Shown here one piece after another: positions 16,563 through 64,000 of a stretch of DNA of 64,000 nucleotides. The first letter of the stretch is position 1. Every line of letters begins with the position of its first letter. The stretch comes from Nitrospirales bacterium. GTDB taxonomy: Bacteria > Nitrospirota > Nitrospiria > Nitrospirales > UBA8639. The DNA is taken from contig BQIU01000007.1 in NCBI GenBank assembly GCA_021603905.1, positions 1-64,000 on the forward strand, written 5' to 3'. The notes below the pieces were generated by a model. The model made no database searches and was not told where the DNA came from. It worked only from the letters and a program-made list of their open reading frames with translations. A program made the position numbers and the translations under genes.

Positions 16563-17219
16563 ATGTGGAAAAAAGATATTGAGATCATGGCTCATCTGCA
16601 TGAACGATTTAATTTTCAGGGACCATTATTGGACGCTGGGGGTCTAGAAAAACCCTGTATTGCCGACTATGAAGTCTCAGCGCAAAAAGCTCATAGAATT
16701 TCTACCCTAGTAAATGGTCAGTCTCGAAATATTGTGGTGCCCCATGCGAATCAAATTGATCGGTATGTCAATATCGCGAGGCCTTGGAGTTTCATTGATC
16801 CCAACTATCAAATCCTTAATCCTGAATCTGGTGATCCGGCCATAGAGGATCTTCCGCAACGTTATTCGGAAGCATTTAATATGGTGATGTTGGTTTCAGT
16901 GCTGGAGCATGTTATTGACCCCTTTGTCTGTAGTGATGCGCTTTTTCAAATTCTTCGTCCCGGTGGATATCTCTTCACCTCTGTCCCGTTTATGTTTCCT
17001 ATTCATAATACGCGAGATAATTGGCGCTTTTCGCCAGATGCCTTGAAAACCATACACACCAAATCAGGGTTTGAACATCTCGAAGGGAATTTTCACGTTC
17101 AATATCATGCAGGGCATGGAATTGCTGATCCTGCAAATCCAGACATATCTATTCCAATATTGGGCTCTTATGCGTTTTGTCAGAAGCCCTTTAAAAAACC
17201 GAGAGATTACTTTTCTTGA
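16563..17219 (+). CDS. SAM-dependent methyltransferase-like protein
   Basis: Methyltransf_11-like: FNMVMLVSVLEHVIDPFVCSDALFQILRPGGYLFTSVPFMFPIHNTRDNWRFSPDAL. Confidence 0.7.
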   Translation: MWKKDIEIMAHLHERFNFQGPLLDAGGLEKPCIADYEVSAQKAHRISTLVNGQSRNIVVPHANQIDRYVNIARPWSFIDPNYQILNPESGDPAIEDLPQRYSEAFNMVMLVSVLEHVIDPFVCSDALFQILRPGGYLFTSVPFMFPIHNTRDNWRFSPDALKTIHTKSGFEHLEGNFHVQYHAGHGIADPANPDISIPILGSYAFCQKPFKKPRDYFS

Positions 17220-20021
17220 ATGACCATTGACATGTCACAGGGAAATTTCACTAGGAACATCCCGGAAATCATAGAAGGTGCCGTCAAGGCCTTCCATGAA
17301 ACCCCAATGCCTCTGTCGGCCTGTTTGAAGCTACGAAGACTCTTGTCAGAACAACAGTCATGCCCTGATTTGCTCATGCCGATTCCAGGGAAGACCATTG
17401 GGTTGGGAGAGCAACTTACATCTCAAAAACTTCAATCGATTCTTAAGGGGATACGATTAGGCGAGTGGTCTTTAGACGTTGAAACTATTGAATTCTTGTT
17501 CGTGGATATTGCCAAAAGACAACCCAAAGCTATCTTGGAGTTTGGTAGTGGTGTCAGCACGATTGTCTTAGCACAGGCTATGGCTGCTTTATATCCTACG
17601 GCTTCCTCTCCGGTAGTTTATAGCATTGAACAAGACGTTAGTCATATTAACAATACTATCGAGCTTTTAGAAAAATATCAGTTAGCGAAGTTCGTGAAAA
17701 TATTTCACGCTCCTCTTGGGTTGCAAGTGTTGGATCAAATTTCTACCAATTGCTGCCTGTTGCCCATGTCAGAGCTTCAAAGTTTTTTAGGTAATATCCA
17801 AATAGATTTTCTGTTAATTGATGGACCAGCTGCAAATTATGGAGAGAGAATTGGTACTTTGCTGTTGGTGCAAAGTTTATTAAAACCTGGTGCTGTGGTG
17901 TATATGGATGATGGTTTGCGCGATAGCGAGTTAGCTATCACTGAATGGTGGAGTCGTTATGGTTACTTAGAAGTCGAGGGCATTTTATGGATTGGAAAAG
18001 GGCTCATGGTTGGACGAATTCCGCATCAACCATTAACGCAGTATTCGTACGCACGGGAATTTTTAACATGGATTGGAAGGGAGTCCCAAGGTGAGCAATC
18101 GAATGATTTGTTATCTCTCCCAACGCAGTTTGTTTCCCAATATATAAATGAAAATTATGTGGAAAATGTAAAAGGTCATACAGGAGTTCAAGTCGAGAAT
18201 CAGATAATCAGATCATCTCGAAATACTAAGGCTCGATGTGTCTTTCTCAATACCTATTATCCAGGGTTTTTGGAGGCGCACTATTCTAAGGCGTTAGATT
18301 TACATTCTCGTTCGTATCAAGCACAAAAAGACTCCTTGCAAACTGAGTATTTCGGAGACAGCAATTTTTATTCTCATGCTTTAATACAAAGTGGATGGGA
18401 GGCACATGATCTCATCGTGAATTGTGCCTCGCTTCAACAGGCCTGGGCTTTAGAAAAGAATATTGCAGGTCAAGGATTAGAAATTGCTGTCGAGCAGATA
18501 AAGGAAATTGCTCCAGATGTTATCTATTTGCAAGATTTAAATCTGGCGACGTCTGCATTCATCTCTGCGATACGCCCATTGACAAAATTGATTGTAGGAC
18601 AAATCGCTTCGAAAGTACCTTCACAGATCGATTTAAAGCAGTTTGATATTTTATTTTCGTCTTTTCCTCATTTTGTGAATGAATTTCGGAAAATGGGTAT
18701 CTCCGCATATTATCAACCTTTAGCTTTTGATCCTCGGGTAATTCAGGAACACATGCAGACGAAGAGAACACATGATGTGACCTTTGTCGGGTCTATTTCA
18801 GCAGATCATAGCCGACGGATGGAGTTCTTGGAACAACTCCAAGGGGCTGTGGCATTTAAGTGCTGGGGATACCAAATGTCCCCTCTTACTCCAGATTCTC
18901 GGATGTATCGGCAGTATTGCGGAGAAGCTTGGGGGAAAGAGATGTTTGCTCTTCTTCAGGATTCATTCATTACTCTGAATTATCATGTTGATGTAGCAGA
19001 GAATTATGCCAATAACATGAGACTGTTTGAAGCGACTGGGTGCGGGGCTCTCTTGATTACCGATTACAAAGAAAATCTACAAGATTTATTTGATGTTGGT
19101 CGAGAAGTCGTTGCGTATCGATCGATAGAGGAAGGCGCAGAACTTATTCGATTCTACTTACATCATCAAGATGAAGCGAAGAGGATTGCCCAAGCTGGAC
19201 AAGCTCGGACCTTGCGTGATCACACTTACTCAATACGTATGGCTCAGACAGCAGAAATCCTTGACCGTCATTTACGATATCAACGTGAGTCTGCTGACTT
19301 ATCTTCATCTGATTTGTCCCGTATTTCTTATGGGTATGAAACTATCGAAAATTCACAAATTACAGTCTCGATGAAAAATGCTTGGAAAGATCAATCTATT
19401 CCAGGCAAGCAAAGAGCATTGGTTCAAACTGAACTTCGCGCTATGTATTCTGGTAGATCTCCTCTCGTCTTTGATGTGTTAGCAGATTGTCTTCGGCCTT
19501 ATGTGATTTCCAATTCCTCGATTCTTGAAATTGGTTGTGCGAGCGGTTACTACTATGAGGTCTTAGAGTATTTGTTGAAGAAACGGATTAGCTATACCGG
19601 TGTCGATTATTCCGATCCTCTTATTTTAATGGCAAAGGATTATTATCCCTCCGCTGATTTTTATGTAGCGGATGGCGCTTGTCTTCCGTTTGAAGATAAC
19701 CAATTTCATGTTGCGATATCCTCCTGCATTCTTCTCCACGTTCCTGAATATTATGAGCATATTCGTGAAACAGCTCGTGTCGCTCAGAATTTTATTGTGG
19801 TCCATCGGACCCCTGTATGTAAGCAACATCCGACTCAGTATTTTCGAAAGTATGCCTATGGTGTTGAAACTGTAGAGCTACGCTTTAATGAAAAAAAAAT
19901 TCTTGAGGAATTTTTTGATGTGGGATTTAGCCTGATACATGCACTGGAGTATGCTTCTGTTCCCGATTCAGACCACTATGATGTCACCTATGTATTCAGA
20001 AAAACACCACAATCAATTTAA
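17220..20021 (+). CDS. Multidomain protein: methyltransferase-like + CgeB-like glycosyltransferase + C-terminal class I methyltransferase
   Basis: 933 aa; AILEFGSGVSTIVLAQA...IDFLLIDGP; middle HDVTFVGSISADHSRRMEFLEQL...YANNMRLFEATGCGALLITDYKENLQDLF; C-term SSILEIGCASGYYYEVL...VADGACLPFEDNQFHVAISSCILLHV. Confidence 0.8.
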   Translation: MTIDMSQGNFTRNIPEIIEGAVKAFHETPMPLSACLKLRRLLSEQQSCPDLLMPIPGKTIGLGEQLTSQKLQSILKGIRLGEWSLDVETIEFLFVDIAKRQPKAILEFGSGVSTIVLAQAMAALYPTASSPVVYSIEQDVSHINNTIELLEKYQLAKFVKIFHAPLGLQVLDQISTNCCLLPMSELQSFLGNIQIDFLLIDGPAANYGERIGTLLLVQSLLKPGAVVYMDDGLRDSELAITEWWSRYGYLEVEGILWIGKGLMVGRIPHQPLTQYSYAREFLTWIGRESQGEQSNDLLSLPTQFVSQYINENYVENVKGHTGVQVENQIIRSSRNTKARCVFLNTYYPGFLEAHYSKALDLHSRSYQAQKDSLQTEYFGDSNFYSHALIQSGWEAHDLIVNCASLQQAWALEKNIAGQGLEIAVEQIKEIAPDVIYLQDLNLATSAFISAIRPLTKLIVGQIASKVPSQIDLKQFDILFSSFPHFVNEFRKMGISAYYQPLAFDPRVIQEHMQTKRTHDVTFVGSISADHSRRMEFLEQLQGAVAFKCWGYQMSPLTPDSRMYRQYCGEAWGKEMFALLQDSFITLNYHVDVAENYANNMRLFEATGCGALLITDYKENLQDLFDVGREVVAYRSIEEGAELIRFYLHHQDEAKRIAQAGQARTLRDHTYSIRMAQTAEILDRHLRYQRESADLSSSDLSRISYGYETIENSQITVSMKNAWKDQSIPGKQRALVQTELRAMYSGRSPLVFDVLADCLRPYVISNSSILEIGCASGYYYEVLEYLLKKRISYTGVDYSDPLILMAKDYYPSADFYVADGACLPFEDNQFHVAISSCILLHVPEYYEHIRETARVAQNFIVVHRTPVCKQHPTQYFRKYAYGVETVELRFNEKKILEEFFDVGFSLIHALEYASVPDSDHYDVTYVFRKTPQSI

Positions 20022-21036
20022 GAAATTTACATCCAAGCGTGTTCTCATTACCGGAGGGCTCGGGTTCATAGGATCTAATCTTGCCATTTCCCTTGTGAAG
20101 CTTGGAGCTCAGGTGACGATCGTGGATAGTTTAATCCCCGAATACGGTGGGAATCTTTGGAATATTCAACCAGTACGAGAGCAGGTTCACGTCAATATCT
20201 CCGATGTACGAGATGAACATTCGTTGAAACATTTAGTTAAAGGGCAGGATTATGTCTTTAATTTGGCGGGGCAGACGAGTCATCTCGATTCCATGACAAA
20301 TCCCTATCAGGATTTAGAAATCAACGCACGTGCCCAACTATGTATTTTAGAGGCCTGCCGCCAACAGAATTCTGATGTGAAAATCGTGTTCGCCAGTACA
20401 CGCCAAATGTACGGAATACCAGAATATTTACCTGTTGATGAACGGCATGTCCTTCAACCGGTCGATGTGAATGGGATCAACAAAATGGCTGGGGAATGGT
20501 ATCACCTTGTCTATCACTCTGCCTATAGCATTCGATCGGTGGTCCTTCGATTGACCAATACCTATGGACCGAGAATGAGAGTGAAAGATGCGAGGCAAAC
20601 GTTTTTAGGAATATGGATCAAACATATCATCGAAGGAAAACCTATTGAGATTTTTGGTGATGGTAGACAAGTCCGAGACTTTAATTATGTCGATGATGTT
20701 GTTGAGGCGCTGTTGCTCGCTGGTCTTTCAGAAGAAGCAAACGGCGAAATTTTCAATTTAGGTTCCGATGATCCCATTTCTCTGACTGACACAGCTGACC
20801 TTCTTCTTTCCACATATGGGAGTGGAATCAAAGACTATATTCCATTTCCCCCGGACCGAAAAAATATCGACATTGGTGATTATTACGGAGATTATCGAAA
20901 AATTCTGATTCGTCTAGGGTGGAAGCCCAGAGTGTCATTACATGAGGGTCTGAAAAGAACACTGGTCTATTATCAAGAGTTCGCGGAGTCATACTGGGAA
21001 CAAGGTGCCATTCATGCTTGTCATTCCGTTCGCTAA
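19990..21036 (+). CDS. NAD-dependent epimerase/dehydratase (extended SDR) with non-canonical YxxxK site
   Basis: [33 protein letters not shown] Rossmann motif; ORF opens at 19939 but ATG at 19990 fits the domain start. Confidence 0.85.
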
Positions 21037-22132
21037 TCCCAAGGCTCAATATCTTGCTAGGAAATTAGAGATTGATGCGGCTATTTCTCGAACACTTGAG
21101 AGCGGCTGGTACATCTTAGGTCAAGAGGTTGAACGCTTTGAAAGAGAATTCGCGAAATTTCTTGGGGTGAACTTTTGTGTCGGTGTGGGTAATGGTACCG
21201 ATGCTCTTGCTCTTGCCTTACTAAGTGTTGGCGTGAATCCAGGGCATGAAGTGATTACGGTGGCGAATACGGCTATCGCAACCATTGCGGCCATTGAACA
21301 GATTGGCGCTATTCCTGTTTTAGCAGATGTTGATTTGCAGACGCGTTGTCTTGATCCCAAGACGATCGAAGGACTCGTGACTTCTCGAACGAAAGCTATT
21401 GTTCCTGTGCATCTTTTTGGACAGCCGGCACCTATGGAAGATATTAATGCCCTGGCATGCAAATGGGGTCTCAAGGTTGTTGAAGATTGTGCGCAGGCAC
21501 ATGGAGCAGAAATTCTTGGAAAGAAGGTTGGATCCTATGGGGATGCTGCCGCATTTAGTTTTTATCCTACGAAGAACCTTGGTGCTCTTGGCGATGGAGG
21601 AGCCGTTGTCACGAATTCAGAGGAAACAGCTGAAACCGTAAGGCAGATTCGTGAGTATGGTTGGACAACACGATTTGTGAGCAACCGGCCTGGAGTCAAC
21701 TCCCGGTTAGATGAAATACAGGCAGCGGTTCTTCGAGTCAAACTGCCTTTTCTCGACTCAGATAATGCTCGTCGACGAAGTATTGCGCAACGATATGAAA
21801 AGGCCATCAACTCTTGTTTACTGGTGTCGCCAAAGAGTATTGATGGAACTCTGACGGCCATGCACCTGTGCGTTATTGAATGTCAGGATCGTGAAGGCGT
21901 AAAAGAGTTTTTAGAAAAAGAAGGAATTGGGACAGCAATTCATTATCCAATGTCTGTTCATGAGCAACCGGCCTATACCGGAAGGTTACGAGGTGAAGAG
22001 TATTTGCCTTGCACTGAATTATTGTCCAAAAAAAATCTCAGTTTGCCAATGTATCCTGAACTAACAGAACTGGAAGTGCGTCATATCTGTTCCGTTTTAA
22101 CACAGTGGTGTAGGACTGAGGGGCATGCATGA
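21014..22132 (+). CDS. DegT/DnrJ/EryC1/StrS PLP-dependent sugar aminotransferase
   Basis: [39 protein letters not shown]...[11 protein letters not shown]...[22 protein letters not shown] with the PLP lysine present. ORF opens at 21005. Confidence 0.92.
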
Positions 22133-25100
22133 AGCGATATTATTGTACCTACTTTGATAAAAACTATTTAGTTCGAGTTCTGGCACTCCTTGAGTCATTA
22201 CATCGTCACGAACGAAATCAGTTTACTCTGTTTGCGGTGTGTATGGATGAGTTGAGTCGTGCCATTTTAGAAAAAATGAATTTGGAGAATGTCATTTCGG
22301 TTCCACTGCATCAAATTGAATACAGGGATGATCGGTTGGTATCCACAAAAAGTAGTCGCTCATTAGTCGAATATTATTGGACAACGACACCGACTATTAT
22401 TTTATATCTTATTGAACAGTACCCTGAGATTGACGTGCTGACGTACGTTGATGCAGATCTGTTTTTCTTTTCATCACCGGACCCTATATTTCAAGAGCTT
22501 CATCAGCAGTCGATTCTCCTTCATGAACATCGATTTTCTTCTTCCTTGCTGCATCTAGCTCAAAATAACGGAAAGTATAATGTTGGGCTACTCTGTTTTC
22601 GAAATGACACTCATGGTCTAGAAGCTCTGAGATGGTGGCGGGAACGATGTTTAGAATGGTGTTTTAGCCGCTATGAGGATGGCAAGTTGGGTGATCAGAT
22701 GTACCTTGATGATTGGTCAACCAGATTTCAACAGGTCGTGGAACTGCAACATATTGGAGGCGGACTTGGTCCATGGAATCAGGAGCAGTACGCCATTAGG
22801 AAAAATGAGTTTGGTGAGGCATGCGTCAATGATCTTCCGGTAATTTTTTATCATTTTCATGCTTTACGTTTTGTAAGTCCCGAATTAATTGTTCCGGTAG
22901 ACCATCTCCATTATCCGATGAATCTTTCGGTTCTTCAAGTTTGTTATCTCCCGTATATTTCTGCACTTTCACAAGCACTGAGAAACCTGACAACAATTTC
23001 TCCTGAATTTACTTCCGGACTGCGAAGTGAGGAAACGATTTCTACCGCTCATTGTATTTTTGCAAAGATTGAATTGGCGAATGCTTTGAAGTCAAAAAAC
23101 ATTCCTCAAATTCTTATCCCAATGGATTCTGAGTGGAATTGCTATTGTCCAGAACAAACTGCTGGTGTGCAAGAGCGTGTCGATGCAGGGCTGCAAGAGG
23201 AGACCTGTCCTACTGGAAGAGAACAGAACACCATTGAATTCAAAGAGACGCCAGTCGGGGATTGCTCACGCTCCATCTATCAAACGATCCAAGATCAATA
23301 TGAGTTATTTCGTACGCTTCAAAACAATCCTCTTGTTCACACAGTTCACACGATCTACATCATTGGTGCTCATTTGTTTCAAGAGCAAGCGATGCTACAG
23401 CGTCTGTTGCCAAATCTTCACCATATCTATCTTTTTGAACCCATTCCTGAGTGTTATACCTATCTCAAGAAAATCACCGTTCACGATTCACGAATCCAAG
23501 TGTTTCCCTATGCGATTTCACAATCTGATGGGCCCGTCGAGTTTTTTCTGACTGACAACCAAGGTGAGTCAAGTTCATTGTTGCCTATGGGGAAACATCG
23601 AGAAATCTTTCCTTCTGTACATCATATCAACACAATAACGATTGAAAGTCGTCACTTAGAACATGTGATACAAGAGTATAACCTCGTAAAGCCTGACATG
23701 CTCTTTCTTGATGTTCAAGGGGCCGAATATCAAATTCTTTCTTCCTTATCCGAGGATTTACTTTCACATATTCAGCTTATCTACGCTGAAGCGAGCCTTG
23801 AAGAATTATATGAAGGGTCAAAGACGTTACAAGACCTACGCAAAGTCCTTCATGAACATTTTATCTTTGCTGGCTATGCTCCTATGTCGGAGCAGACCCC
23901 GACTCATGGCAATGCGTTATTTACCACTCGAGAAACAAAAATAATAGGTGAGGGAGTTGCTCTAGTATCTACCGAAAAGAGTGAACCCTTAATCTCAGTC
24001 ATTGTTTCAACCTATAACGCATTTGAATTTATTCGCGAATGTCTGGATGACCTGGAACGGCAATCGCTAGCAGAGCAAGTGGAAATTATTGTTGTCGACG
24101 CGGCATCGCCTCAACAAGAAAAAGATATTGTCCTGGAATATCAAGAACGCTATGGCAATATTGTGTACATACGAACTCCCGAACGAATTACGGTCTATGC
24201 AGCTTGGAATTTAGCGATTCGAGCCGCTCGTGGAAAATATATTACTCCATTTAGTACGAATGATCGTTTGAGAAAAAATGCCTATGAAATTTTGGTGAAT
24301 GTGTTAGAAGAACATCAAGAAATTCCTTTGGTCTATGGAGATACCTATTTGACTAGGATTCCGCATGAATCGTTTGAATGCCATACGCGTTCCGGTAAAA
24401 CCCAATGGCCTCCATATAGCTTTGAAGACCTTCTCAATAATTGTCGAGTGGGTCCTCATCCTATGTGGCGGAAAGACATTCATGACACAATTGGTTATTT
24501 TGACGAACAGTTTCGAGCGGTCGGTGACCAGGATTTTTGGCTGCGTATTGGTGAACAATATAATCTTATGTATATTCCAGAAGTCACAGGTTTGTATTGG
24601 CTCTCACCTGATGGGTTGTCAAACCAAGATGATATCGTAACCCCAGAATTGAATTCAATTCGACGAAAACATCGAGAGCGATACGCGCTACGCATATCTC
24701 AGACGCAAGCCGTGAACTTCGACTGTTCTATTGTAATCCCAGTTTACAACAAGGTTGACTTAACCAAGCAATGTCTAACTCAATTGGCAATGGTGACGGA
24801 TGGAGTGAGTTATGAAGTAATAGTAGTAGATAACAATTCCACAGATGGGACAGAGGCTTTCTTAGAAACCTTAGAAGGAGATGTACAGATTATTCGAAAC
24901 ACAGAGAATTTGGGATTTGCCAAAGCCTGTAATCAGGGGGCGAGAGCTGCTCGTGGCAAATATCTTGTTTTCCTTAACAATGACACGATTCCGCAACGCG
25001 AATGGTTGAGTGTTTTGGTCAAGGAAGCTGAGGCCGATAACGATATTGCGATTGTCGGCAGTAAACTGTTGTTTGAGGATGGGACTCTTCAGCATGCAGG

Positions 25101-26370
25101 AGTTGTGATTTCTCGTTGTTTACTGATCCCATACCATATCTATGGAAACTTGCAGGGAGATGTAAGGTGTGCAAATCATCGACGTGAGCTTCATGCAGTG
25201 ACGGCAGCATGTATGCTAGTCAAACGAAAATTCTTTGATGAGGTTGAGGGATTTGATGAAGCGTACAGAAATGGATTTGAGGATACTGATTTATGTTTGA
25301 AAATTGGTGAGAAAGGCGGAAAGATTGTGTATCAGCCGGAAAGTTGGATGTACCATTTAGAGAGCCAAAGTCCTGGAAGAAAGGAATATGAGGAAGACAA
25401 CGCCGCTCTCTTTAAAGAGCGATGGGATAAAAAGTACATAGTTGATGAAGATTGTATTGCGATTGAAGATGGGATGGCCGTGCTGTTGACTGAGAAGGAT
25501 GGAAATTTCTCTATATCCTACAGGATGTTAAAGGATGAAAAGGAGTACGCAAGTTGGGCTAAAGTCGCTCAGCTTCAACGTTTCCTTCAAGAATTCGGAC
25601 GTGAGAACAAGTCGGAAATTAGAAGAGAGTCCCTCCTCAATGAAATTCATCAATTGGTTTGTGATCTTGAAGCGTGGCCGAAAGACTCGTCTGTTGTCGT
25701 CTGGATAGGGTCGATATGTGATACCTTAGGGTTTCATGCACTTGGCGATATGTTTTTTCGGCAAGCTCTACATGTGGGAGAATCTCAAGACGCGCGTTCC
25801 AGGTTAGTTCGTCTTGCACTTAATCAAGGAAATTTGGAAGAAGCGAGTTTACATCTTTCTGCTCTCTTAGAAGTCGCACCAAACGAAAGTTTCGTCCTGC
25901 ATCTGCAAGGAGTATATTTCATGCAATGTAAAAACTTTGTCGAAGCCAAGGAATCTTTTGAGAAAGTTATCACGAATGATGGCGATCGAATAAAAGCTCA
26001 ACTCGGAATGGGGATGGCTTACGTAGGCATGGGAGAGACGAGGAAGGCATGGGATGTTTTCATAAAGACGGTCTATGAGCGTCCTGATGATACCGAGGCG
26101 ATAAATTGGGTGCTTCGCACTGGCACGGAGTTAGCTGACTGGGAATCGTTGTCGACAATGCTCTCGCGATTTCTTGAACGAAATCCGGCAAATGGTGACA
26201 TGCGGTTTGCGTTGGCCAGTGTGAGCCTTCGTCTTGGAAAGGTAGATGATGCTCAAGCCCAGTTGAACGCATTACAGCTTCTTCACCCTGATCTTGAAGG
26301 CCTTGCTGACTTGAAGAACGCGATCCTTAGTTTTGATCCCCATACGGTTCCGGTTGCTATCCACGGGTAA
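22129..26370 (+). CDS. 1413-aa multidomain protein: N-terminal GT-A-like domain, FkbM-type methyltransferase, two GT2 domains, C-terminal TPR-like region
   Basis: [16 protein letters not shown] (GT-A DxD-like); FkbM-like [16 protein letters not shown]...[16 protein letters not shown]2 [16 protein letters not shown]...; GT2 [20 protein letters not shown]...FLNNDTIPQ...; C-terminal tandem helical repeats. Confidence 0.85.
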
Positions 26371-27999: not shown

Positions 28000-28483
28000 T
28001 GAATCTCTGTCCACTACCGCATATCCCCCAATGTTCGCACAATCCATGGGTCCTAATACGATTGTGCGACTTGGTGTTGGTGTGGTTATCCGTGACGAAC
28101 GAGGGTGGGTACTCTTGGAGCAACGATCCGATTGTGGATGGTGGGGAATGCCAGGAGGGAGATTGGAGGTTGGCGAGTCGATCACACAAACAGCCGTGCG
28201 CGAAGTGAAAGAAGAGACCGGCTTGGACGTTGAAATTATTCGATTGATCGGGATCTATTCAGAACCACAAGAACGAATCGTGACATATCCTGACACGATA
28301 GATGGTGTGCAGCTCATTGATGCGGTTGTAGAAGGACATATATTATCGGGAACACTCACCTGCAGTCATGAAAGTTTTGATGTGAGGTTTTTCTCACCAC
28401 ATGCACTACCTGAAGAGTTAATCCCGCCCTCACGCATTCCACTTCGTGATGCGCTATTAGGAGACTATGCCCAAGTTCGCTAA
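27986..28483 (+). CDS. NUDIX hydrolase
   Basis: Nudix box GGRLEVGESITQTAVREVKEETGL. Confidence 0.9.
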   Translation: MPMSNESLSTTAYPPMFAQSMGPNTIVRLGVGVVIRDERGWVLLEQRSDCGWWGMPGGRLEVGESITQTAVREVKEETGLDVEIIRLIGIYSEPQERIVTYPDTIDGVQLIDAVVEGHILSGTLTCSHESFDVRFFSPHALPEELIPPSRIPLRDALLGDYAQVR

Positions 28484-52035: not shown

Positions 52036-52233
52036 ATATATGCAATGATATTCGAGAAGTTCTCAACTTTGCTTAGGATATCTTTGATGATGTCTATCAA
52101 GGTTAAGGAGCGGTATTATGGAGTCAATGTCGTGAAATCTTGGAAGTATCAGCGATTGCTCGTCTATCCGTTCTAGAAAGAATCTAGGGGTAATAGAAAA
52201 ACTCGTGGCAAATATATACAGGAGTCTGATGAA

Positions 52234-53736: not shown

Positions 53737-53738
53737 TT

Positions 53739-54409: not shown

Positions 54410-55480
54410 ATGAATGCGGTAAGGCAGACAAGAGCGGCAGTGTTGCTCCAACCTAATTGTCCATTGGAGTTAATGATGTTAGAGGTCCCGGAGTTACAAC
54501 CTGGCCAGGTTGTAGTAAAGGTCATGTATAGTGGACTCTGTGGTACGCAACTGATGGAAATGCAAGGGAAAAAAGGGCCTGATCGGTATTTGCCACATAC
54601 ATTGGGACATGAAGGGGCTGGAGTTGTTATAGAGATCGGAGAAGGTGTCAAAAAAGTACAGCCAGGGCAGAATGTGGTGTTGTCATGGATTAAAGGGGGT
54701 GGGGCAGATGTGGGGAAATCTGTCTACAGAAGTGAGAAGGGTCCGGTGAATTCTGGTGCAGTTAGTACGTTCATGGAATATGCTGTTGTATCAGAGAATC
54801 GAGTGACGCCAATCCCACATTGGTTGCCGTTAAAAGAAGCTTCATTACTGGGATGTGCAGTTCCGACTGGGGCTGGAATTGTATTCAATACTTTGAAGGT
54901 GAAAGAGCAGGACAGTGTCGCTATTTTCGGTATTGGTGGAGTTGGTCTGAGCGCTTTCTTCGCAGCTCAATCTGTCGGGGCACGGATTATAGTCATTGAT
55001 CAAATCGACAATAAATTGCAACAGGCTAAAAAGTTAGGGGCATGGAAGACCATAAACATTACTCATGAAGACCCAATGAGCGTGATTGCTGAAGTAACCA
55101 ATGGACGAGGTGTCGATCATTCAATTGAAGCCGCGGGTCAAGTCACGACCATGGAGCTGGCCTTTCAAGTGACTAAGGAACAGGGTGGAACATGTGTGCT
55201 CGCAGGAAATTTGGAACATGGTGGTGAAATATCTCTTGATCCTTTTGCTCTTATCAAAGGCAAGAGGCTATTGGGGACCTGTGGTGGAGAAACCACCATG
55301 GATCAGGATCTCCCACGGTTTGCAAGTCTCTATCAACAAGGAAGTCTTATGTTGGGTCAATTAATATCACAGGTCTTCCCGCTTGGAGAGATCAATACTG
55401 CTTTTGAAGCCATGAAAAAGGGCGTGATGGGTCGTGTACTGATTGATGTTTCTTCGCTGTCTTCTGATTCCATATTGTGA
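54410..55480 (+). CDS. Zinc-type medium-chain alcohol/polyol dehydrogenase
   Basis: SGLCGTQLMEMQGKKGPDRYLPHTLGHEGAGVVIEIGEGVKKVQPGQNVVLSW; SVAIFGIGGVGLSAFFAAQSVGARIIVID. Confidence 0.92.
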   Translation: MNAVRQTRAAVLLQPNCPLELMMLEVPELQPGQVVVKVMYSGLCGTQLMEMQGKKGPDRYLPHTLGHEGAGVVIEIGEGVKKVQPGQNVVLSWIKGGGADVGKSVYRSEKGPVNSGAVSTFMEYAVVSENRVTPIPHWLPLKEASLLGCAVPTGAGIVFNTLKVKEQDSVAIFGIGGVGLSAFFAAQSVGARIIVIDQIDNKLQQAKKLGAWKTINITHEDPMSVIAEVTNGRGVDHSIEAAGQVTTMELAFQVTKEQGGTCVLAGNLEHGGEISLDPFALIKGKRLLGTCGGETTMDQDLPRFASLYQQGSLMLGQLISQVFPLGEINTAFEAMKKGVMGRVLIDVSSLSSDSIL

Positions 55481-55638: not shown

Positions 55639-57102
55639 ATGGATATGAAGAAAGAAGAATTCAATATTGTCGTTGTGGTGTGGGGGAAAGTCTATACAGA
55701 AGACTTTCTATCATGGACGTTACCGACACATCTTTCTAGACGGAATCTAGGAGTATTTTATACAAATACTGCCGCAAGCTGTCACTATCATATTTTTACC
55801 ACGACTGCTGATAAGAAAGAGATTGAAAAAAGTGAGGTGTTTTCCCTCTTAAGCCGCTTTGCGACACCAGAGTTTCATATTATTGATCAAAGAATCTCCG
55901 AAATGGAGGCCGGCGACATTAACAAATATGATGTGTTGACATTATGTCATCAAGAAATTGTTGCTTTATCCGCACGACAGAATAGTGGTCTGATTGTGTC
56001 TGGTCCTGAAATGCTTTTGGCCGATGGCGCAGTTGAGAATCTCCTAAAGCTTGTTAAGCAAAAGAAGAAGCTTGTGTTGACTGGAGCGGTGCGTGCTAAA
56101 CGAGAGTCCCTGCTTTCAGATTTTGGCACTCGACACGACTTTCAAGATGATGGGAGTTTCACAATTTCGCCACGAGATCTCGTTGCCTTATCACTGAAAC
56201 ATGTTCATCCATCATCCACGAGTATTTACTGGAATTCCCCTGTATATCGAAAAAAGGCATGTGCCTATCTCTATTGGCCGGTTGGCTCAGTGGGGCTTGT
56301 ACAACGTGGCATTCATCTTCATCCATTTTTATCGTTTCCACAGTCGGAGAGCGACCTGACATATTCAGCAGAAGGTCTTGGGATTGATGGAACAGATTAT
56401 GCCTTGCGAGTATGCCAAAATCTGGAACAATTACATGTCGTAGGAGATTCAGATGAGGTGTACTATCTCACGTTTGATACTGTCTTACCAGGAACACCTC
56501 CCAACGGAAGCGCACGAATTATTGATCTCGCATCATGGCTTACTAGGCATACTCATTCCCATCATCGTTATTTCATGTCGAAAGCCATCATATTTCATAG
56601 TACCGAAATCAATGAAATGTTTGATCCTGTTTTACGAGAATCAGAAAATATTGTCATGCAGGCGTTAAGGATGGCAGAAGCCTTTGAGGCTGCTCCAGAC
56701 GGTCACAAAGAATTTCAAACTCTACGTGAGGTTGAGATGGAGCAATTTCGTATGGCAAATTTACGATTAGTATTGACCGTAGCTAATCTCTACAATCAAC
56801 TTGGTGTAGAAGTTTTCAATGGAGGAAAACCTGAAGAAGCTGAAAAATTCTGGCAAACTGCTATTGAACTAACTCCTAGTGTATTAGCTCCACATGATAA
56901 TCTGGCTGCATTTTACGAGAGCCGTGGAAATCTAAAACAGGCAATACAGCGTGGGGCCTCAGGAGTGTACATTGATCCTGTGAATCCACAACGGTGGATT
57001 AAGCTCAGTCAATTGTATGAACATCAAGGTGACTATCAACGTGCTAGTGAGTGCAAGCAACAGGCTGCTCGACTGTTGTCTGGTAGTCAGTCTAAGGAAT
57101 AG
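55639..57102 (+). CDS. Uncharacterised protein with C-terminal TPR repeats, probably glycan-related by context
   Basis: 487 aa; no confidently recognised N-terminal family; C-terminal TPR (GGKPEEAEKFWQTAIELTPSVLAPHDNLAAFYESRGNLKQAIQRG...). Confidence 0.7.
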   Translation: MDMKKEEFNIVVVVWGKVYTEDFLSWTLPTHLSRRNLGVFYTNTAASCHYHIFTTTADKKEIEKSEVFSLLSRFATPEFHIIDQRISEMEAGDINKYDVLTLCHQEIVALSARQNSGLIVSGPEMLLADGAVENLLKLVKQKKKLVLTGAVRAKRESLLSDFGTRHDFQDDGSFTISPRDLVALSLKHVHPSSTSIYWNSPVYRKKACAYLYWPVGSVGLVQRGIHLHPFLSFPQSESDLTYSAEGLGIDGTDYALRVCQNLEQLHVVGDSDEVYYLTFDTVLPGTPPNGSARIIDLASWLTRHTHSHHRYFMSKAIIFHSTEINEMFDPVLRESENIVMQALRMAEAFEAAPDGHKEFQTLREVEMEQFRMANLRLVLTVANLYNQLGVEVFNGGKPEEAEKFWQTAIELTPSVLAPHDNLAAFYESRGNLKQAIQRGASGVYIDPVNPQRWIKLSQLYEHQGDYQRASECKQQAARLLSGSQSKE

Positions 57103-57498: not shown

Positions 57499-59142
57499 AT
57501 GAAGGTTGTGTTGGTATATCCAACCTGGACAGGCTCTTATGGAATTTTCGGCCATTTCGCACGACGTGCAGCAGGATGGCCCCCGTTGAATCTGGCTTTA
57601 CTCGCTGCCATTGCTGAAAACCATGGTCATGAAGTGAGTATTATTGATGGAGAAGCGAACGGCCTGTCGATGGACGAAATGGTTGCTGCAACAATGGAAC
57701 AGCAACCTGATATTGTTGGGTTGACTGCAACGAGTCCTTTTTTTCACATCAGTAAAGCGTTTGCCACCCATTTTAAGCAAACCGCTCCGGAGATTCCTGT
57801 CGTGATTGGTGGTCCACATATCACGATTGTGAAAGAGAAGGCTTTGGAGTCGTGCTTTGATTGGTTATTTATTGGTGAAGCTGAAGACTCGTGGCCTCAG
57901 TTTCTTGATCTTCTTGAAGCTGGCCGTGATGTATCTGAAGTGCCGGGACTAATCTTCCATCGAGATAATCAAGTCATCACCACAGGACAACCAGCAAATG
58001 TTTCTGATCTTGACAGTCTTCCTTTTCCAGGTCGGCATTTGCTTGATATGAGCAAGTATAAGATCGGTACATTAGAAGGCAGAAAAAATTTTTCGTCAAT
58101 TCAGACCATGCGAGGTTGTCCGTGGAAATGTATCTTCTGTGCATCAGAAGCTTTGAAGACGACGGATATGCGCGTTCGTTCACCGCGTTCTGTTGTGGCA
58201 GAAATGAAGTCTGTCGTTACCAAATATGGAATCACACATTTCAATATCGTCGATGATGTCCTTACCCTCTGGAATGACCATATTGTAGAGATTTGTGATT
58301 TACTTGATCAGGAAGGTTTATCTATTACGTTTGAAGGTAGCACGAGAGCAAACTTAGTTGATGAGGCATTGATTGAGCGGCTCGCAAAAAGTGGGCTTAT
58401 TCGTTTGTCCTTTGGGTTGGAGACAGTTGATGCGCAGATGCGGAAGACGATGAAAAAACAAGTGCCGCTTGAACATTATGTACGGGCGAATCGGATTTGT
58501 AATCAATTTGGTGTTGAAGCTCTAAATTCGGTCATGATTGGTTTGCCTGGGGAAACACGAGAGACGGTGAAAAAGACACTTGATTTCCTCGGTAAAGCAC
58601 GTGACGTCGCGCAGGCGAATTTTGCGATTGCGGTGCCTTATCCTGGTACAGAATTTCACGATATGGCTATAAGTGGGGATTATGGAATTGAACTCATGAG
58701 TAAGGATTTTTCAGAATATCGACGGTATGGCAGTGCTGTGACTACGGTGAACGGTTTGTCTCCGCATGATCTCATTGAGCTACAGAACGAAGGATTTGTC
58801 AAAATCTACTCCGCGCCATGGCGTTGGCGCCCTATGCTTAAGAAGCATGGCGTCCTAGGTGGTCTCCTTATGCTTTTTCGTGTGGGTAAATTACTGATGA
58901 AAAAATCTTTGCCCAGAAATTTTACGGAAACAAAGCAAGAGTTTGTCAGTTTAGGTGATGGTGCATTCGGGAAAGTGCAAGATGTACCAAATATTGACAT
59001 GGCATCGATGGAGCCTGAACTTGTGGGAATTGCGACGGAAGGATCACCGGACGCCCCCCTCCTAACGATTCAGTCATTACCACGCAAGTCTCCTGCTCCT
59101 GCTGGCCATATCGGTCATCCAAGTCGGCCCAATCTATTGTAA
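57499..59142 (+). CDS. B12-binding-domain radical SAM protein
   Basis: PPLNLALLAAIAENHGHEVSIIDGEANGL...PDIVGLTATSPFF...PVVIGGPHITI; GCPWKCIFCAS CX3CX2C. Confidence 0.93.
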   Translation: MKVVLVYPTWTGSYGIFGHFARRAAGWPPLNLALLAAIAENHGHEVSIIDGEANGLSMDEMVAATMEQQPDIVGLTATSPFFHISKAFATHFKQTAPEIPVVIGGPHITIVKEKALESCFDWLFIGEAEDSWPQFLDLLEAGRDVSEVPGLIFHRDNQVITTGQPANVSDLDSLPFPGRHLLDMSKYKIGTLEGRKNFSSIQTMRGCPWKCIFCASEALKTTDMRVRSPRSVVAEMKSVVTKYGITHFNIVDDVLTLWNDHIVEICDLLDQEGLSITFEGSTRANLVDEALIERLAKSGLIRLSFGLETVDAQMRKTMKKQVPLEHYVRANRICNQFGVEALNSVMIGLPGETRETVKKTLDFLGKARDVAQANFAIAVPYPGTEFHDMAISGDYGIELMSKDFSEYRRYGSAVTTVNGLSPHDLIELQNEGFVKIYSAPWRWRPMLKKHGVLGGLLMLFRVGKLLMKKSLPRNFTETKQEFVSLGDGAFGKVQDVPNIDMASMEPELVGIATEGSPDAPLLTIQSLPRKSPAPAGHIGHPSRPNLL

Positions 59143-59214
59143 GTGCTGAGGTCAGAATTATGTCCAGTTCAGAGTATGTGAATTAATCAAACCTTTCGTT
59201 TGACGAAGGACAGC

Positions 59215-62200
59215 ATGGCATCACGGAAATCCACTGCACTTTTAATTCAGCTAGAATTTCCAACTTGGAAACTTGCTCGCCCTTGGACCTATTCGGCGAA
59301 CTTTGCTATTCAAGATGCACTTTCTCAGTTAGAAGTTGAATGTTTTACGATTCCCGCTATTCCAGGTGAGCAACGGTCTTGGCTTTCTCATGCGAGATCA
59401 TTTTGCCAAAACAAACAGTTTGATCAAGTCTGGTTATGGCTCGTTCATTATCACTATGACGAGTTATTTTTAGATTGGATCTCTACTCTCGCACCGATAC
59501 GGATTGGCGTGTTGATGGAATCATTACACTATGGGTCTGAAGCCTATGCGAATTCGCCCGGACTAATTGAGCGTCCTCGTATTGTTTCCCGTCAAATTCA
59601 AGCTTTGACTCATGTGTTGACATTTGATGAACAGGATGCAGAAGACATTAGTGCTTCAAAGTCGGCTGATGCCATATGGTGGCCTGCAAGCGTTCCTCGC
59701 AATTGTATCGTCGATACTCCTGCTCCATTAGATGGCCGAAAAGCTGTTTTTCATGGAAATATCTATGGATCTCGCCGAGCGTGGATTGATCATCCAGTTC
59801 TAGACCGCATGCTCGTACCTACCAAGAGCAGCTCAGAATCTGAGTTTCCTTGTTTGTTTGATGAACTACAGCAGTATGCACGAAATATATTAGAGAGTGG
59901 GCGAATTGTTTCAGGGCAAGATCTAGTCCAATACATTTCAAATCTTCATAGTATTCGAAAGGGAGAGTTTCGTGAATGGATGCGTGGACTACGTGCATCC
60001 GGTCCAATAATCAATTTGCCTAGTTATGCGAGTTTTTATGGTGGGCGTGTATTTGAGGGAATGGCAGCAGGATGTCCAGTTCTTTCTTTTGCTATTCCGA
60101 ATCGCCCTAAGACCCGAACTCTCTTTGAAGATGGTAAAGACATTCTCCTATTTTCTCAGGACGATCCTTCTTCTCTCGCTCTACAGTTGGATCGTCTTGA
60201 GCGAGATCCAGTCTTTAGCGAAAAGTTGATGGTTCATGCACTTCAGAAGATTCGTAAATTTCACACGGTCGAATGGCGAGTACAGCAAGCATTGGCTTGG
60301 GTGAAAAATGGAAAAGTTCCAACATATGATGAGAGTTCGGAGTATGGAACACTGAGTGATTTTCCAGATGCTTCTTCTACAAACAGTAGATCAAAGGATC
60401 TTCGTATGTCTTCCGATTCACCAGAGGGATGGAGTATGAGTAAATGTTTGCCCAAGGGATATATTGAACGTGTCGGTCATACGCAATACCTCGATACTCC
60501 GGGTGAGTTTATATACCAACCGCATGTGTATGAGCTAGCTGGTTTCTTGGCTGAACGTTCGGGTGCCAAATGGATTATCGATATAGGGTGTGGTTCTGGA
60601 GAAAAGCTTCAAGCGTTACCTCAAGAATTTCGAATTTTGGGTATTGATTGTTCGGACTCACTTAATCTTGCGAAAGAAAGGTTACCTCAAGGGAAATTTA
60701 TTGACTGTGACCTCGAAAATGGGTTGCCACAATTATCTGAGGAAATTCTTAGAAATGCCGTCGTAATTTGCTCTGATGTCATTGAGCATCTTCAGCGCCC
60801 TGATTGCCTCATGCAGGCTTTGGCTGGTTTATCTAAGGTCTCACCATTTTTATTAATTTCAACCCCAGATCGGGATCGAGCACGTGGATGGCTCGATAAT
60901 GGTCCACCGGCCAATCAAGCCCATGTGATGGAGTGGGCGGCGACAGAATTTGCGCGCTTTATGAAGGAGTCTGGATTTGGCGAGGGACATTTTTTAGGTC
61001 ATACCATTAACACCGATTTTCATTTGGCGAAGACCACTCTTTTAGCTGTTGCCGGGACACAGGCGATACCGCCTTCGTCTGGGCAAAAAACGTTTCGAGT
61101 CGCAGCTATCATTCATGTCTACAATGAAGCAGATATTCTTCCTGAGGTGATTGAGCACCTATACAATGAAGGAATCGAAGTTCATATTTTTGATAATTGG
61201 TCAGATGACGATTCATGGAAAGTCATTTGTTCTCTTAAAGGATTAGGGAAAGTGACTCACGCTGAGCGTTTTCCGGAAGCTCGAATTAATGAATATCAAT
61301 GGAAACGTCAACTTGAAAAAACTGAGACGTATGCCGCTACGCTTCCAGTTGATTGGGTCATGCATCATGATGCTGATGAAATACGAATGAGTCCATGGCG
61401 GGGGGTTACTTTAAAAAATGCCCTAGCCCACATTCATTGGCTGGGATACAGCGCGGTGGATCATACGGTTATTGATTTTCGGTTTCTGTCTCATCGGAAT
61501 TCCAGCCAGGCGCCCTACCAAACAAATTTGACTCATTTTGAATTCGGTCGACGACCAGGTCATTTTCACCAGGTAAAAGCCTGGAAAAATGTTGGGAACA
61601 TCAAACTCTCCAACACGGGAGGTCATGAGGCCCAGTTTCCAGATCGACGCATTTATCCCATTAAGTTTCTCATCAAGCATTACCCATTAAGAAATTTGGA
61701 TCAAGCCAGTAAAAAGGTATTTCAAGATCGATTGCCTCGAGTGATCAATGAACACCATACCTTGGGCTGGCATTCGCAATATGATCAATATTCCCCAAAA
61801 GATATGGCTGGGTGGTTGCCCAAAGATTTGTTGTCTTACCATTCTGTGCATTTTGATACGGAGTATTTGGTCGAACGAATAAGTGGCATAGGCTTAGCAG
61901 AAAAGAAGCCTGAAGTGATGGAGGAGACGATGTCTGAAGTTGGAGCAGCAATCTTAAAAAATTATACCCGAGATATGACGACAAATGTCTGGCAGCGTCC
62001 AGAATATACAGGTATTGCATATAGTGACGGAGATGAGATTGAGAAGCGTTTAAAAAATATTATAACAAGGGCCAGTGATGTCAGTGTAATGTCGGTTGAA
62101 TTGGCAAACCACTATACTGATTGGCCCTCTCGGTATCATTTGTCCAATCAACGTGCCAATCTTTTGCGACCATTTGAAGAAGGTCTACGAGGAAAACAGG

Positions 62201-64000
62201 TTCTCGAAATTGGTGCAGGTTGTGGGGCCATCTCACGGTATCTGGGTGAGATTGGATCCGATGTGTTTGCCATAGAAGGTAGCCCGCGTCGAGCTTCCAT
62301 TGCTGCCCTTCGTTGCCGTGATCTGAAAAACGTGACAGTCGTTGCCGAAGCGGTTCAGACACTTCAATGTATTCAAAAATTTGATGTGGTGACTCTCATT
62401 GGAGTTTTAGAATACGCGAGAAAGTTTTTCCCCGGTGAGGGAAAAGATCCTGTTGATGCCATGCTGAAATATGTCACAGGCTTTTTAAAGCCTGGGGGTA
62501 AATTGATTATTGCGATTGAAAATCAACTGGGCCTGAAATACTTTGCGGGATTTCTTGAAGATCACATGGGTGAACCCATGTTTGGGATTGAAGATCAGTA
62601 CGATTCTAGCAATGTGGTGACGTTTGGTCGGAAAGACCTTGGTGACCGAGTAGGTAGGGCTGGATTAACGAGGATGCAATGGTGGTACCCATTTCCGGAT
62701 TATAAGCTTCCTAGACTGATGATATCAGATCAGGGAGCATTGCCAGTGGACGACATGAATCTTTTTCCGCTTGTCCGCAATGCCTGTTCCAAAGACCTGC
62801 AACATCCTTCACGCGTCAGTTTTAACCAGGAAAGAGCGTGGCGGCCCGTTATGCGAAATGGTCTTCTCAAAGAAATGGCAAATTCCTTTGTCTTGCTTGC
62901 ATCTGATAGGGAAATTTCTGACATGTCAGACAGATCCCTTGCTATTCATTATGCCACGGACAGGAGACCTGAATTTGCTAAAAAAGTCGTGTTTAGTCGT
63001 ACCAAAAACGATGCGCCTATGACCTATCAAATTGCACTGTACCCTCAACTTCATAGTCGAAACTTGATGGTGAACCAGCGTCTTGAACATCAAGCCTTTG
63101 TTCAGGGTCAACTATGGCAAGACCGCCTAATCGATATTATGACCAGCCCTGCTTGCTCATTTGAACAAATCCAGCAATGGTTTCACGTATGGGTCGACGC
63201 ATTCTATTCTGCTGCAGGGTTAGTGGAAGCTCCCGATGTCATGTATAAAAAAATTTCAGGTAAGTACATTGACATGATCCCACAGAATTTATTTGTTGAT
63301 GGAAATGGAGCATATACGTTTATCGATCAAGAATGGGAATATGGGCAAGAAATTCAGGTTGGGTATGTGGTTTATCGAGCACTCATAACTTCTCTCGGTG
63401 AAATGAAAAACTTTTGCAAACATTCGGAGCAAAGGGATCGACAGCCATTACCTCTTATTCTTAAAGTTGCAGAAAGTGTCGGTTTTTCTTTTACGAACCA
63501 TGAATTGAAGAAGTGTATCGTATTTGAAAATACCTTACAGCAATATGTCCTGGGTAAGATCAATTCCCTAAACTATGAGACCCTGTCTCCTCATAAGGGC
63601 GGCAACAGTAATATTGAGGAATCCAAAGAAAGTTGCGAGAAGCAGAATACGAACTCACCTGTTTTTGATTGTTCGATTGTTATTCCTGTTTTCAATAAGG
63701 TAGAGCTTACCCAGCAATGTCTTATTCAATTGGCAAACGTGACGGATGGGGTCAGCTACGAAATCATTGTTGTGGATAATCACTCAAGTGATGGGACAAG
63801 AGAATTCTTAGAAACGCTCGATGGTGATGTGCAGATTATTCGAAATAGCGAGAATTTGGGCTTTGCCAAAGGTTGCAATCAGGGTGCACGTGCATCGAGA
63901 GGAAGGTATGTCGTGTTTTTGAATAATGACACCATTCCTCAACCCGGCTGGCTTCAAGCCCTGGTGAAGGAAGCGAGTGCACATTCGGACGTAGCGATTG
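59215..64000 (+). CDS. At least 1595-aa multidomain protein, 3'-truncated by the window: glycosyltransferase-like + methyltransferase + GT2-like + methyltransferase/kinase-like + GT2
   Basis: Hand translation from ATG 59215 stays open to 64000 (spot-checked in frame, no stop seen): MASRKSTALLIQLEFPTWKLARPWTYSANFAIQDAL...; WIIDIGCGSGEKLQALPQEF; FRVAAIIHVYNEADILPEVIEHL...[60 protein letters not shown]...[12 protein letters not shown]. Confidence 0.9.
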   Translation, partial: MASRKSTALLIQLEFPTWKLARPWTYSANFAIQDALSQLEVECFTIPAIPGEQRSWLSHARSFCQNKQFDQVWLWLVHYHYDELFLDWISTLAPIRIGVLMESLHYGSEAYANSPGLIERPRIVSRQIQALTHVLTFDEQDAEDISASKSADAIWWPASVPRNCIVDTPAPLDGRKAVFHGNIYGSRRAWIDHPVLDRMLVPTKSSSESEFPCLFDELQQYARNILESGRIVSGQDLVQYISNLHSIRKGEFREWMRGLRASGPIINLPSYASFYGGRVFEGMAAGCPVLSFAIPNRPKTRTLFEDGKDILLFSQDDPSSLALQLDRLERDPVFSEKLMVHALQKIRKFHTVEWRVQQALAWVKNGKVPTYDESSEYGTLSDFPDASSTNSRSKDLRMSSDSPEGWSMSKCLPKGYIERVGHTQYLDTPGEFIYQPHVYELAGFLAERSGAKWIIDIGCGSGEKLQALPQEFRILGIDCSDSLNLAKERLPQGKFIDCDLENGLPQLSEEILRNAVVICSDVIEHLQRPDCLMQALAGLSKVSPFLLISTPDRDRARGWLDNGPPANQAHVMEWAATEFARFMKESGFGEGHFLGHTINTDFHLAKTTLLAVAGTQAIPPSSGQKTFRVAAIIHVYNEADILPEVIEHLYNEGIEVHIFDNWSDDDSWKVICSLKGLGKVTHAERFPEARINEYQWKRQLEKTETYAATLPVDWVMHHDADEIRMSPWRGVTLKNALAHIHWLGYSAVDHTVIDFRFLSHRNSSQAPYQTNLTHFEFGRRPGHFHQVKAWKNVGNIKLSNTGGHEAQFPDRRIYPIKFLIKHYPLRNLDQASKKVFQDRLPRVINEHHTLGWHSQYDQYSPKDMAGWLPKDLLSYHSVHFDTEYLVERISGIGLAEKKPEVMEETMSEVGAAILKNYTRDMTTNVWQRPEYTGIAYSDGDEIEKRLKNIITRASDVSVMSVELANHYTDWPSRYHLSNQRANLLRPFEEGLRGKQVLEIGAGCGAISRYLGEIGSDVFAIEGSPRRASIAALRCRDLKNVTVVAEAVQTLQCIQKFDVVTLIGVLEYARKFFPGEGKDPVDAMLKYVTGFLKPGGKLIIAIENQLGLKYFAGFLEDHMGEPMFGIEDQYDSSNVVTFGRKDLGDRVGRAGLTRMQWWYPFPDYKLPRLMISDQGALPVDDMNLFPLVRNACSKDLQHPSRVSFNQERAWRPVMRNGLLKEMANSFVLLASDREISDMSDRSLAIHYATDRRPEFAKKVVFSRTKNDAPMTYQIALYPQLHSRNLMVNQRLEHQAFVQGQLWQDRLIDIMTSPACSFEQIQQWFHVWVDAFYSAAGLVEAPDVMYKKISGKYIDMIPQNLFVDGNGAYTFIDQEWEYGQEIQVGYVVYRALITSLGEMKNFCKHSEQRDRQPLPLILKVAESVGFSFTNHELKKCIVFENTLQQYVLGKINSLNYETLSPHKGGNSNIEESKESCEKQNTNSPVFDCSIVIPVFNKVELTQQCLIQLANVTDGVSYEIIVVDNHSSDGTREFLETLDGDVQIIRNSENLGFAKGCNQGARASRGRYVVFLNNDTIPQPGWLQALVKEASAHSDVAI

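Follow-up and report, generated by a model that had tools for sequence, protein, structure and literature searches.

A probable flagellin glycosylation island of a Nitrospirales bacterium holds all three thiamine diphosphate enzyme superfamilies associated with C-branched sugars

We describe an island of about 60 kb that runs from csrA to fliC in the genome of a Nitrospirales bacterium and that is likely to be a flagellin glycosylation island with an unusual branching chemistry. Most of it lies in the 64,000-nucleotide window analysed here (contig BQIU01000007.1, positions 1-64,000; contig coordinates continue past 64,000). Flagellin is very probably the target of the pathway, and judging from the enzyme families encoded, the glycan probably holds a C-branched sugar. 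Flagellin glycosylation islands as such are already known, though one of this size is uncommon; what is new is the presence in one locus of all three superfamilies of thiamine diphosphate (ThDP) enzymes associated with carbon branching. Nitrospirales are environmentally important bacteria and include nitrite oxidisers.

Three ThDP systems in one island

Gene families were assigned by Pfam and NCBIfam profile scans, with the NCBIfam equivalog cut-offs used as threshold. All window genes from fliW onward for which coordinates are given below lie on the + strand. A first examination of the window from its letters and open reading frames, called here the sequence-only reading, had listed three ThDP systems among the genes of the island, and the scans recovered all three (starts 33221 and 34102, 41526 and 42605, and 44756). 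According to a recent review, the ThDP superfamilies known or proposed to form C-branched sugars with tertiary alcohols are the YerE-like decarboxylases, the alpha-KADH2 (E1) enzymes and the split-gene transketolases (PMC12247030). The island holds one of each.

The YerE-like lyase, which also resembles acetolactate synthase (ALS; 44756-46519), has JanthE (8rph) as its closest solved structure, at 333 bits compared with 262 bits for E. coli acetohydroxyacid synthase (AHAS) I; JanthE is a YerE-like enzyme (PMC12188165). The protein scores below the cut-offs of the AHAS models, and the AHAS of the genome is found on contig C21. In a phylogenetic tree it stands apart from the AHAS of the family and groups with JanthE (SH-aLRT 98), which sits on a long branch. 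It has a GDG motif and an HEQ, which we take to be the ThDP motif and the site of the catalytic Glu, respectively. The E1-alpha/E1-beta pair (41526-43663; PF00676 218 bits, PF02779/PF02780) stands alone, with no E2 or E3 matched among the scanned island proteins. The strongest E1 match of the genome is on contig C103, so the island pair is a paralogue. The third system is a transketolase split into an N part and a C part (33221-35082; PF00456 and PF02779/PF02780).

The three systems resemble characterised branching enzymes to different degrees. Keto-sugar dehydrogenases accompany the YerE-like lyase in the same cluster, as they do YerE, ErwE and JanthE (PMC12247030), but the characterised lyases act on CDP-deoxyhexoses destined for lipopolysaccharide (LPS) O-antigens; in the literature that we found, no report links one to a PanB partner or to flagellin. 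The E1 pair shares with AviB1/AviB2, Pau11/Pau12 and KbDH the arrangement of an E1-alpha/beta without E2/E3 in a sugar cluster (PMC4753412, PMC12247030), although these pairs are known from actinobacterial antibiotic clusters rather than from a Nitrospirales surface-glycan island. Likewise, the two-gene transketolases of the miharamycin and amipurimycin clusters are found in a sugar cluster with short-chain dehydrogenases/reductases (SDRs). The 13 candidates for split-gene branching transketolases are all from Streptomycetes and are untested in vitro (PMC12247030), whereas those found here belong to Nitrospirales, Omnitrophota and others.

The ThDP systems differ between close relatives. The slot directly after the gene SDR5 is occupied by the E1 pair in the window genome (G000) and in G021, and by a transketolase pair in G022 and G024 (G021-G024 are genomes of the same genus). 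Such a one-slot swap is what one would expect to see if branching enzymes were exchanged. After the transketolase pair, G022 (contig C2) and G024 (contig C47) also carry a HAD-like and a kinase-like gene, recognised by eye, between the alcohol dehydrogenase family gene (ADH) and SDR6; the window has neither.

The island keeps its place between flagellar genes

The upstream border consists of flgK, flgL, a GGDEF response regulator, fliW (14093-14572; PF02623 101 bits) and csrA (14694-14945; read from its translation). Downstream, the sequence-only reading had advised a search for fliC, which was found at contig 76332-77159. Beyond the window the block continues as far as about 76.1 kb and includes a single minus-strand gene (68117-69118): past 68,094 follow this minus-strand methyltransferase with tetratricopeptide repeats (TPR), then glycosyltransferases of families GT9, GT1, GT1 and GT9, a 177-aa protein, fliC, flaG, fliD and fliS.

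The interval from fliW to fliC measures 62 kb in G000, 43 kb in G021, 50 kb in G022 and 48 kb in G024. It is interrupted by contig ends in G023, and conservation in the genus is judged within the limits set by the contigs. For G038, which represents a second genus of the family, the interval is about 35 kb. The order flgL-fliW-csrA-island-fliC is common to the genus and the second genus. Nitrospira defluvii and strain UBC2 have a homologous island, whose YerE-like gene is situated with flgL on one side and fliC on the other. The link to flagellar genes is thus kept in G000, G021, G022, G024, the second genus, Nitrospira defluvii and UBC2, which rules out a lack of conserved linkage; nor did any characterised O-antigen locus turn up that matched the block as a whole. 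The sequence-only reading had suggested modification of the flagellar filament or another surface polymer with an atypical sugar. Conserved linkage supports flagellin, while the gene content speaks for several sugars and not for one.

Common to the genus at 50-88% identity are an oxidoreductase of the DAO family, SDR2, (NUDIX), HddC, HddA, GmhA, SDR4, a reversed HldE and SDR5; the genus likewise keeps the run GT9a-GT1a-GT1b-GT9b-177-aa protein-fliC-flaG-fliD-fliS. Recurring in G038 are SDR2, HddA, the radical SAM genes rSAM1 and rSAM4, one large glycosyltransferase and the GT9/GT1 module. Nitrospira has SDR2 (65-69% identity), HddA (about 56%), rSAM1 (about 50%), the ALS-like protein (36-38%) and rSAM4 (66-68%), together with an HddC-like gene, large glycosyltransferases and the GT9/GT1 module; rSAM1 adjoins the YerE-like gene there. 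GT9 is the heptosyltransferase family, and its genes adjoin fliC as far as Nitrospira. GT9a had no solved-structure match. FliC itself is composed of N and C helical regions and a short middle alone and is 91-98% identical within the genus, while the island modules differ. The place is therefore constant and the protein almost so, and it is the sugar genes that vary.

The island also stands out by composition, with a G+C content of 44.2% against 47.4 and 47.1% in its flanks; the glycosyltransferase module is at 47.3%. The same dip is seen in G021 (48.1% against 51.2 and 51.8%). Position inside a filament-gene locus with conserved flanks, glycosyltransferase and sugar-nucleotide genes, variable content and G+C below that of the flanks are the features by which flagellin glycosylation islands are recognised. 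The Geobacillus islands (De Maayer and Cowan 2016, PMC5109656) show the same variable, lower-G+C insertion in a filament-gene locus with conserved flanks, and the same assortment of glycosyltransferases, methyltransferases and SDR/DegT genes with no single common pathway. They differ in measuring 13-30 kb, in lying between flaA2 and flaG, in having nonulosonate or rhamnose genes and in mostly encoding Maf (PMC5109656), while the Nitrospirales island, at about 60 kb and between csrA and fliC, has heptose-type and ThDP genes and no Maf that we found.

Three further observations concern this neighbourhood. The GGDEF response regulator (12561-13520) sits between flgL and fliW, and a response-regulator gene of like size is found there in the genus and in G038. 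The 177-aa protein directly upstream of fliC (contig 75552-76085) belongs to no known family and is kept in the genus and the second genus at 44-89% identity; its predicted structure (pLDDT 80.5) has a beta-rich N part followed by long helices and gave no match in the PDB below E 0.28. The interval has a single minus-strand gene, the TPR-containing methyltransferase at 68117-69118, and this gene is on the minus strand in G022, G023 and G024 as well.

Heptose-type genes and a Cj1427-like dehydrogenase

The heptose genes of the sequence-only reading are present as an HddC-like nucleotidyltransferase (28467-29291; NCBIfam HddC 153 bits), an HddA-like sugar kinase (29336-30400; NCBIfam HddA 132 bits), a GmhA-like SIS-domain isomerase (36926-37552; PF13580, gmhA model 71 bits) and an HldE-like fusion (38882-40417; PF01467 then PF00294). 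All score below the NCBIfam equivalog cut-offs and hence are family members, not proven equivalogs. Adjoining the HddA/HddC-like genes is SDR2 (27061-27999), a predicted GDP-heptose C4-dehydrogenase that matches PDB 6vo6/6vo8 over its full length at 379 bits, the next match being at 81 bits. We take 6VO6/6VO8 to be Cj1427, the C4-dehydrogenase of Campylobacter, from a structure paper of 2020 to which PMC10680097 refers. By family membership, these genes resemble the C. jejuni GDP-heptose route, and SDR2 would supply a keto-sugar. No GmhB was found in the island, and a GmhB-like relative near the cut-off lies elsewhere in the genome, on contig C34. In C. jejuni, too, GmhA/HddA/HddC-type genes stand by a Cj1427-type C4-dehydrogenase (Cj1423-Cj1427) and GmhB is encoded outside the capsule cluster (PMC10680097). 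There the keto-heptose passes to epimerases and reductases for capsule, whereas the island has ThDP carboligases and C-methyltransferases and adjoins flagellin.

In the HldE-like fusion the nucleotidyltransferase precedes the kinase, in contrast to E. coli HldE, where the order is the opposite; the protein is 77-86% identical in the genus.

A PanB paralogue linked to YerE-like genes

PanB had been listed in the sequence-only reading, and it is indeed encoded in the island, directly after the YerE-like gene (46506-47501; PF02548 325 bits). It passes the equivalog cut-off for ketopantoate hydroxymethyltransferase (KPHMT) and keeps D45, D84, K112, E114, H136 and E181, presumably the catalytic residues. 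A second PanB, of the housekeeping type, lies on contig C36 beside a folD-like gene. In the tree the window PanB is placed apart from the housekeeping rows, and its neighbours on the contig are sugar genes; on this sequence evidence, it is not the housekeeping enzyme. Instead, the seven PanBs found near YerE-like genes form one clade (100/100) that spans five phylum-level lineages, its members being the window, G021, two Omnitrophota, Patescibacteria, Harrisonbacteria and Prochlorococcus. All seven have Tyr in place of E. coli Ile200 and Leu in place of Ile212, where the housekeeping rows differ; Ile202 and Ile212 are positions altered in KPHMT variants used with other 2-oxoacids.

Omnitrophota allow the linkage to be gauged. 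Among 285 genomes, 249 have PanB and five of these 249 have two. In G058 and G351 a PanB lies 59-63 bp downstream of the YerE-like gene on the same strand, and these are the PanBs closest to that of the window (83 and 59% identity; the other Omnitrophota PanBs listed reach at most 51%). By a rough estimate, the chance of a second PanB adjoining a given gene is about 1/1000, so that two cases are hardly chance. In a metagenome-assembled genome (MAG) of Patescibacteria, PanB and an MT3-type methyltransferase form a single in-frame fusion (L059:4737-6518, a 593-aa frame), which adjoins a YerE-like gene.

ErwE-type enzymes take hydroxylated 2-keto acids as donors (PMC12247030), and PanB is able to make 4-hydroxy-2-oxoacids; we therefore propose PanB as donor maker. 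The separate clade, the altered pocket residues and the YerE-like neighbours point to a hydroxymethylated keto-acid as the branching donor made by this enzyme, a proposal that we hold to be evenly balanced.

Related modules in other phyla

Relatives of the YerE-like protein at 43% identity or more were found in 14 loci, mostly of Omnitrophota, Woesearchaeota, Chlamydiales and candidate phyla. The methyltransferase MT3 accompanies it in nine of the 14, ADH in eight, the E1 pair in seven, the reversed HldE in six and SDR5 in five. The C-methyltransferase and the classical SDR occur in five, always together, and the transketolase and PanB in two each. One Omnitrophota locus (L116) carries all three ThDP systems. 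The window island is mosaic, combining at least two sugar modules.

In Woesearchaeota, which are DPANN archaea, the loci L052, L054 and L061 have the YerE-like gene, E1 pair, MT3 and ADH at 43-58% identity, two of the three with the C-methyltransferase as well, an apparent cross-domain transfer of a sugar pathway. A Chlamydiales MAG (L053:1-21716) has nearly the whole second module, namely SDR5, SDR4, GmhA, reversed HldE, E1 pair, SDR6, MT3, YerE-like gene, MT2 and ADH, although its genome yielded no flagellin gene.

Remaining content of the island

Between 16.5 and 64 kb the window is a single co-oriented + strand block, as first described, and all minus-strand open reading frames of at least 100 aa lie inside or across family-supported + strand genes. 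The enzyme list of the sequence-only reading was borne out nearly item by item by Pfam and NCBIfam, although the block does not stop at the window edge. The DAO oxidoreductase (15171-16433; PF01266 193 bits) precedes it and holds the same place in G021, G022 and G024 (60-77% identity).

The three very large glycosyltransferases have 933, 1413 and 2964 aa, the last ending outside the window at contig 68,094. They are a methyltransferase-glycosyltransferase-methyltransferase fusion (17220-20021; PF13578, PF13524 114 bits, PF08241), a multidomain protein with FkbM methyltransferase and TPR (22129-26370; PF00535, PF05050, PF01501) and a glycosyltransferase/methyltransferase/TPR protein (59200-64000, on to contig 68094; PF00535, PF13489, PF14559). 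Methyltransferases occur inside all three and as separate genes at 16563-17219 (PF13489, weak), 47458-48747 (sugar C-methyltransferase-like; PF13489, with PF08421 and PF08484 slightly below cut-off), 49563-50267 (MT2; PF13489) and 53655-54407 (MT3; PF08241 62 bits).

Six extended SDRs were counted, with one classical SDR in addition. SDR1 (start 19939; PF01370) lies with the aminotransferase DegT1 (start 21005; PF01041) in 19939-22132; the closest solved structure to DegT1 is 7b0d, and QdtB also scores high. The others, besides SDR2, are SDR3 (36020-36910; PF01370 159 bits), the GalE/LegB-like SDR4 (37815-38879; PF16363 217 bits, 72-79% identical in the genus), SDR5, a second Cj1427-family member (40529-41533; 6vo6 147 bits), and SDR6, which is dTDP-glucose 4,6-dehydratase-like (43675-44706; TIGR01181 219 bits, below cut-off). 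The classical SDR reductase is at 48770-49546 (PF13561 144 bits). The second of the two DegT enzymes is RfbH/PseC-like (DegT2, a pyridoxal phosphate enzyme, 30309-31646; PF01041, RfbH model 196 bits, below cut-off).

Four radical SAM proteins are encoded, three of which have a B12-binding domain: rSAM1 (31692-33224; PF04055, PF02310), rSAM2 with a B12-binding domain and rSAM3 with TPR and SPASM (starts 50440 and 52234, together 50440-53736; PF04055, PF02310, PF13186) and rSAM4 (57499-59142; PF04055, PF02310). The list is completed by a NUDIX hydrolase (27986-28483; PF00293), a 2-hydroxyacid dehydrogenase (35082-36023; PF02826 178 bits), ADH of the zinc alcohol dehydrogenase family (54410-55480; PF00107, PF08240) and a protein with C-terminal TPR (55639-57102), in which TPR alone was matched and whose predicted structure has a pLDDT of 38.8.

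Discussion

From these families we propose the following working of the island. The GmhA-, HddA- and HddC-like enzymes would produce GDP-D-glycero-D-manno-heptose, with GmhB supplied from elsewhere, and SDR2 would turn this into a keto-heptose by oxidation at C4. Another activated keto-sugar would come from a second module that runs partly in parallel and comprises the GmhA-like, reversed HldE-like, SDR4, SDR5 and SDR6 proteins. Carbon branches on the keto groups would then come from the ThDP enzymes: an acetyl unit taken from pyruvate by the E1 pair, a glycolyl unit through the split transketolase and, through the YerE-like enzyme, an acyl unit whose source is a longer 2-keto acid. PanB would make this last donor by hydroxymethylation of a 2-keto acid. 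Branches may be reduced by the SDR and ADH enzymes, and the methyltransferases and B12 radical SAM enzymes may add methyl groups. No Wzx, Wzy, ABC exporter or oligosaccharyltransferase was among the Pfam matches of the scanned island proteins, which suggests cytoplasmic transfer by soluble glycosyltransferases as the simplest route; the large glycosyltransferases and the GT9/GT1 module by fliC would load the sugars on flagellin before export.

Several points weigh against this proposal. A Maf-type flagellin glycosyltransferase was not found among the scanned island proteins; Maf is common and not universal, and the Geobacillus type V island is also without it (PMC5109656), so this is not decisive. 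The E1/YerE-like/SDR module is also present in genomes where no flagellin was found, and is therefore not flagellin-specific in itself. The long branch of JanthE makes its grouping with the window protein only moderately secure, and the heptose genes, scoring below equivalog cut-offs, may act on another sugar phosphate.

Could the block be an O-antigen or exopolysaccharide locus that lies beside flagellar genes by happenstance? Cj1427-type heptose and YerE-type branching have each been described from LPS or capsule, and the occurrence of the module without flagellin fits this explanation too. However, the placement from flgL-fliW-csrA to fliC is kept across the order, the glycosyltransferase module by fliC is conserved, and the scanned island proteins showed neither a flippase nor a polymerase or exporter. 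With its position conserved and no Wzx/Wzy found, we rejected an O-antigen locus as quite improbable. We give a similarly low probability to two separate glycans, the GDP-heptose module and GT9/GT1 serving flagellin and the E1/YerE/PanB module another surface target. The two heptose-type kinase/nucleotidyltransferase sets would suit such a division, as would the solitary travel of the second module in other phyla, but the modules are interleaved on one strand with many genes overlapping or abutting, and the island yielded no second export route.

Instead of a carbon branch, the PanB, YerE-like, E1 and DegT proteins might make an acyl group for attachment to an amino sugar, of the kind present in N-acylated flagellin sugars. 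The island does have two DegT aminotransferases, and the 4-hydroxy-2-oxoacid products of KPHMT are chemically decarboxylatable to hydroxy acids. This is nevertheless unlikely, as no acyl-CoA ligase or N-acyltransferase family was matched in the island, there is no E2 for acyl transfer, and the ThDP enzymes belong to groups known for ketone acceptors. It is very improbable that the genes for the ALS-like protein and PanB are housekeeping genes of valine and pantothenate synthesis that have been displaced. PanB passes its equivalog cut-off with catalytic residues kept and the ALS-like protein matches acetolactate synthase models, yet neither ilvC, ilvD, panC, panD nor an AHAS small subunit was matched in the island, and the ALS-like protein is closest to JanthE and below the AHAS cut-offs. 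A valine/pantothenate operon was rejected, since paralogues exist elsewhere in the genome (PanB on C36, AHAS on C21) and the window PanB is in the wrong clade, outside the housekeeping rows.

Flagellin glycosylation with C-branched sugars thus remains our preferred reading. More broadly, and tentatively, the data may reflect a transferable route to heptose-type sugars that are C-methylated and multiply C-branched, with a distinct PanB subfamily providing a hydroxymethylated 2-keto acid for decarboxylation and transfer to a keto-sugar by a YerE-like ThDP enzyme; the pathway would serve flagellin in Nitrospirales, and parts of it other surface glycans in Omnitrophota, Chlamydiales, Patescibacteria, Prochlorococcus and Woesearchaeota. 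In a search that left subscription literature mostly outside, no paper turned up on flagellin glycosylation in Nitrospira or on PanB with sugar branching, a weak negative.

If true, this would be the first locus known to us with all three C-branching ThDP superfamilies side by side. Split transketolases would gain a testable branching role outside Streptomyces, and a PanB subfamily labelled as pantothenate synthesis by automatic annotation would receive a function. A further suggestion is that Nitrospirales may cover their nearly invariant flagellin in a sugar that changes fast, which would be expected under pressure from phages or grazers.

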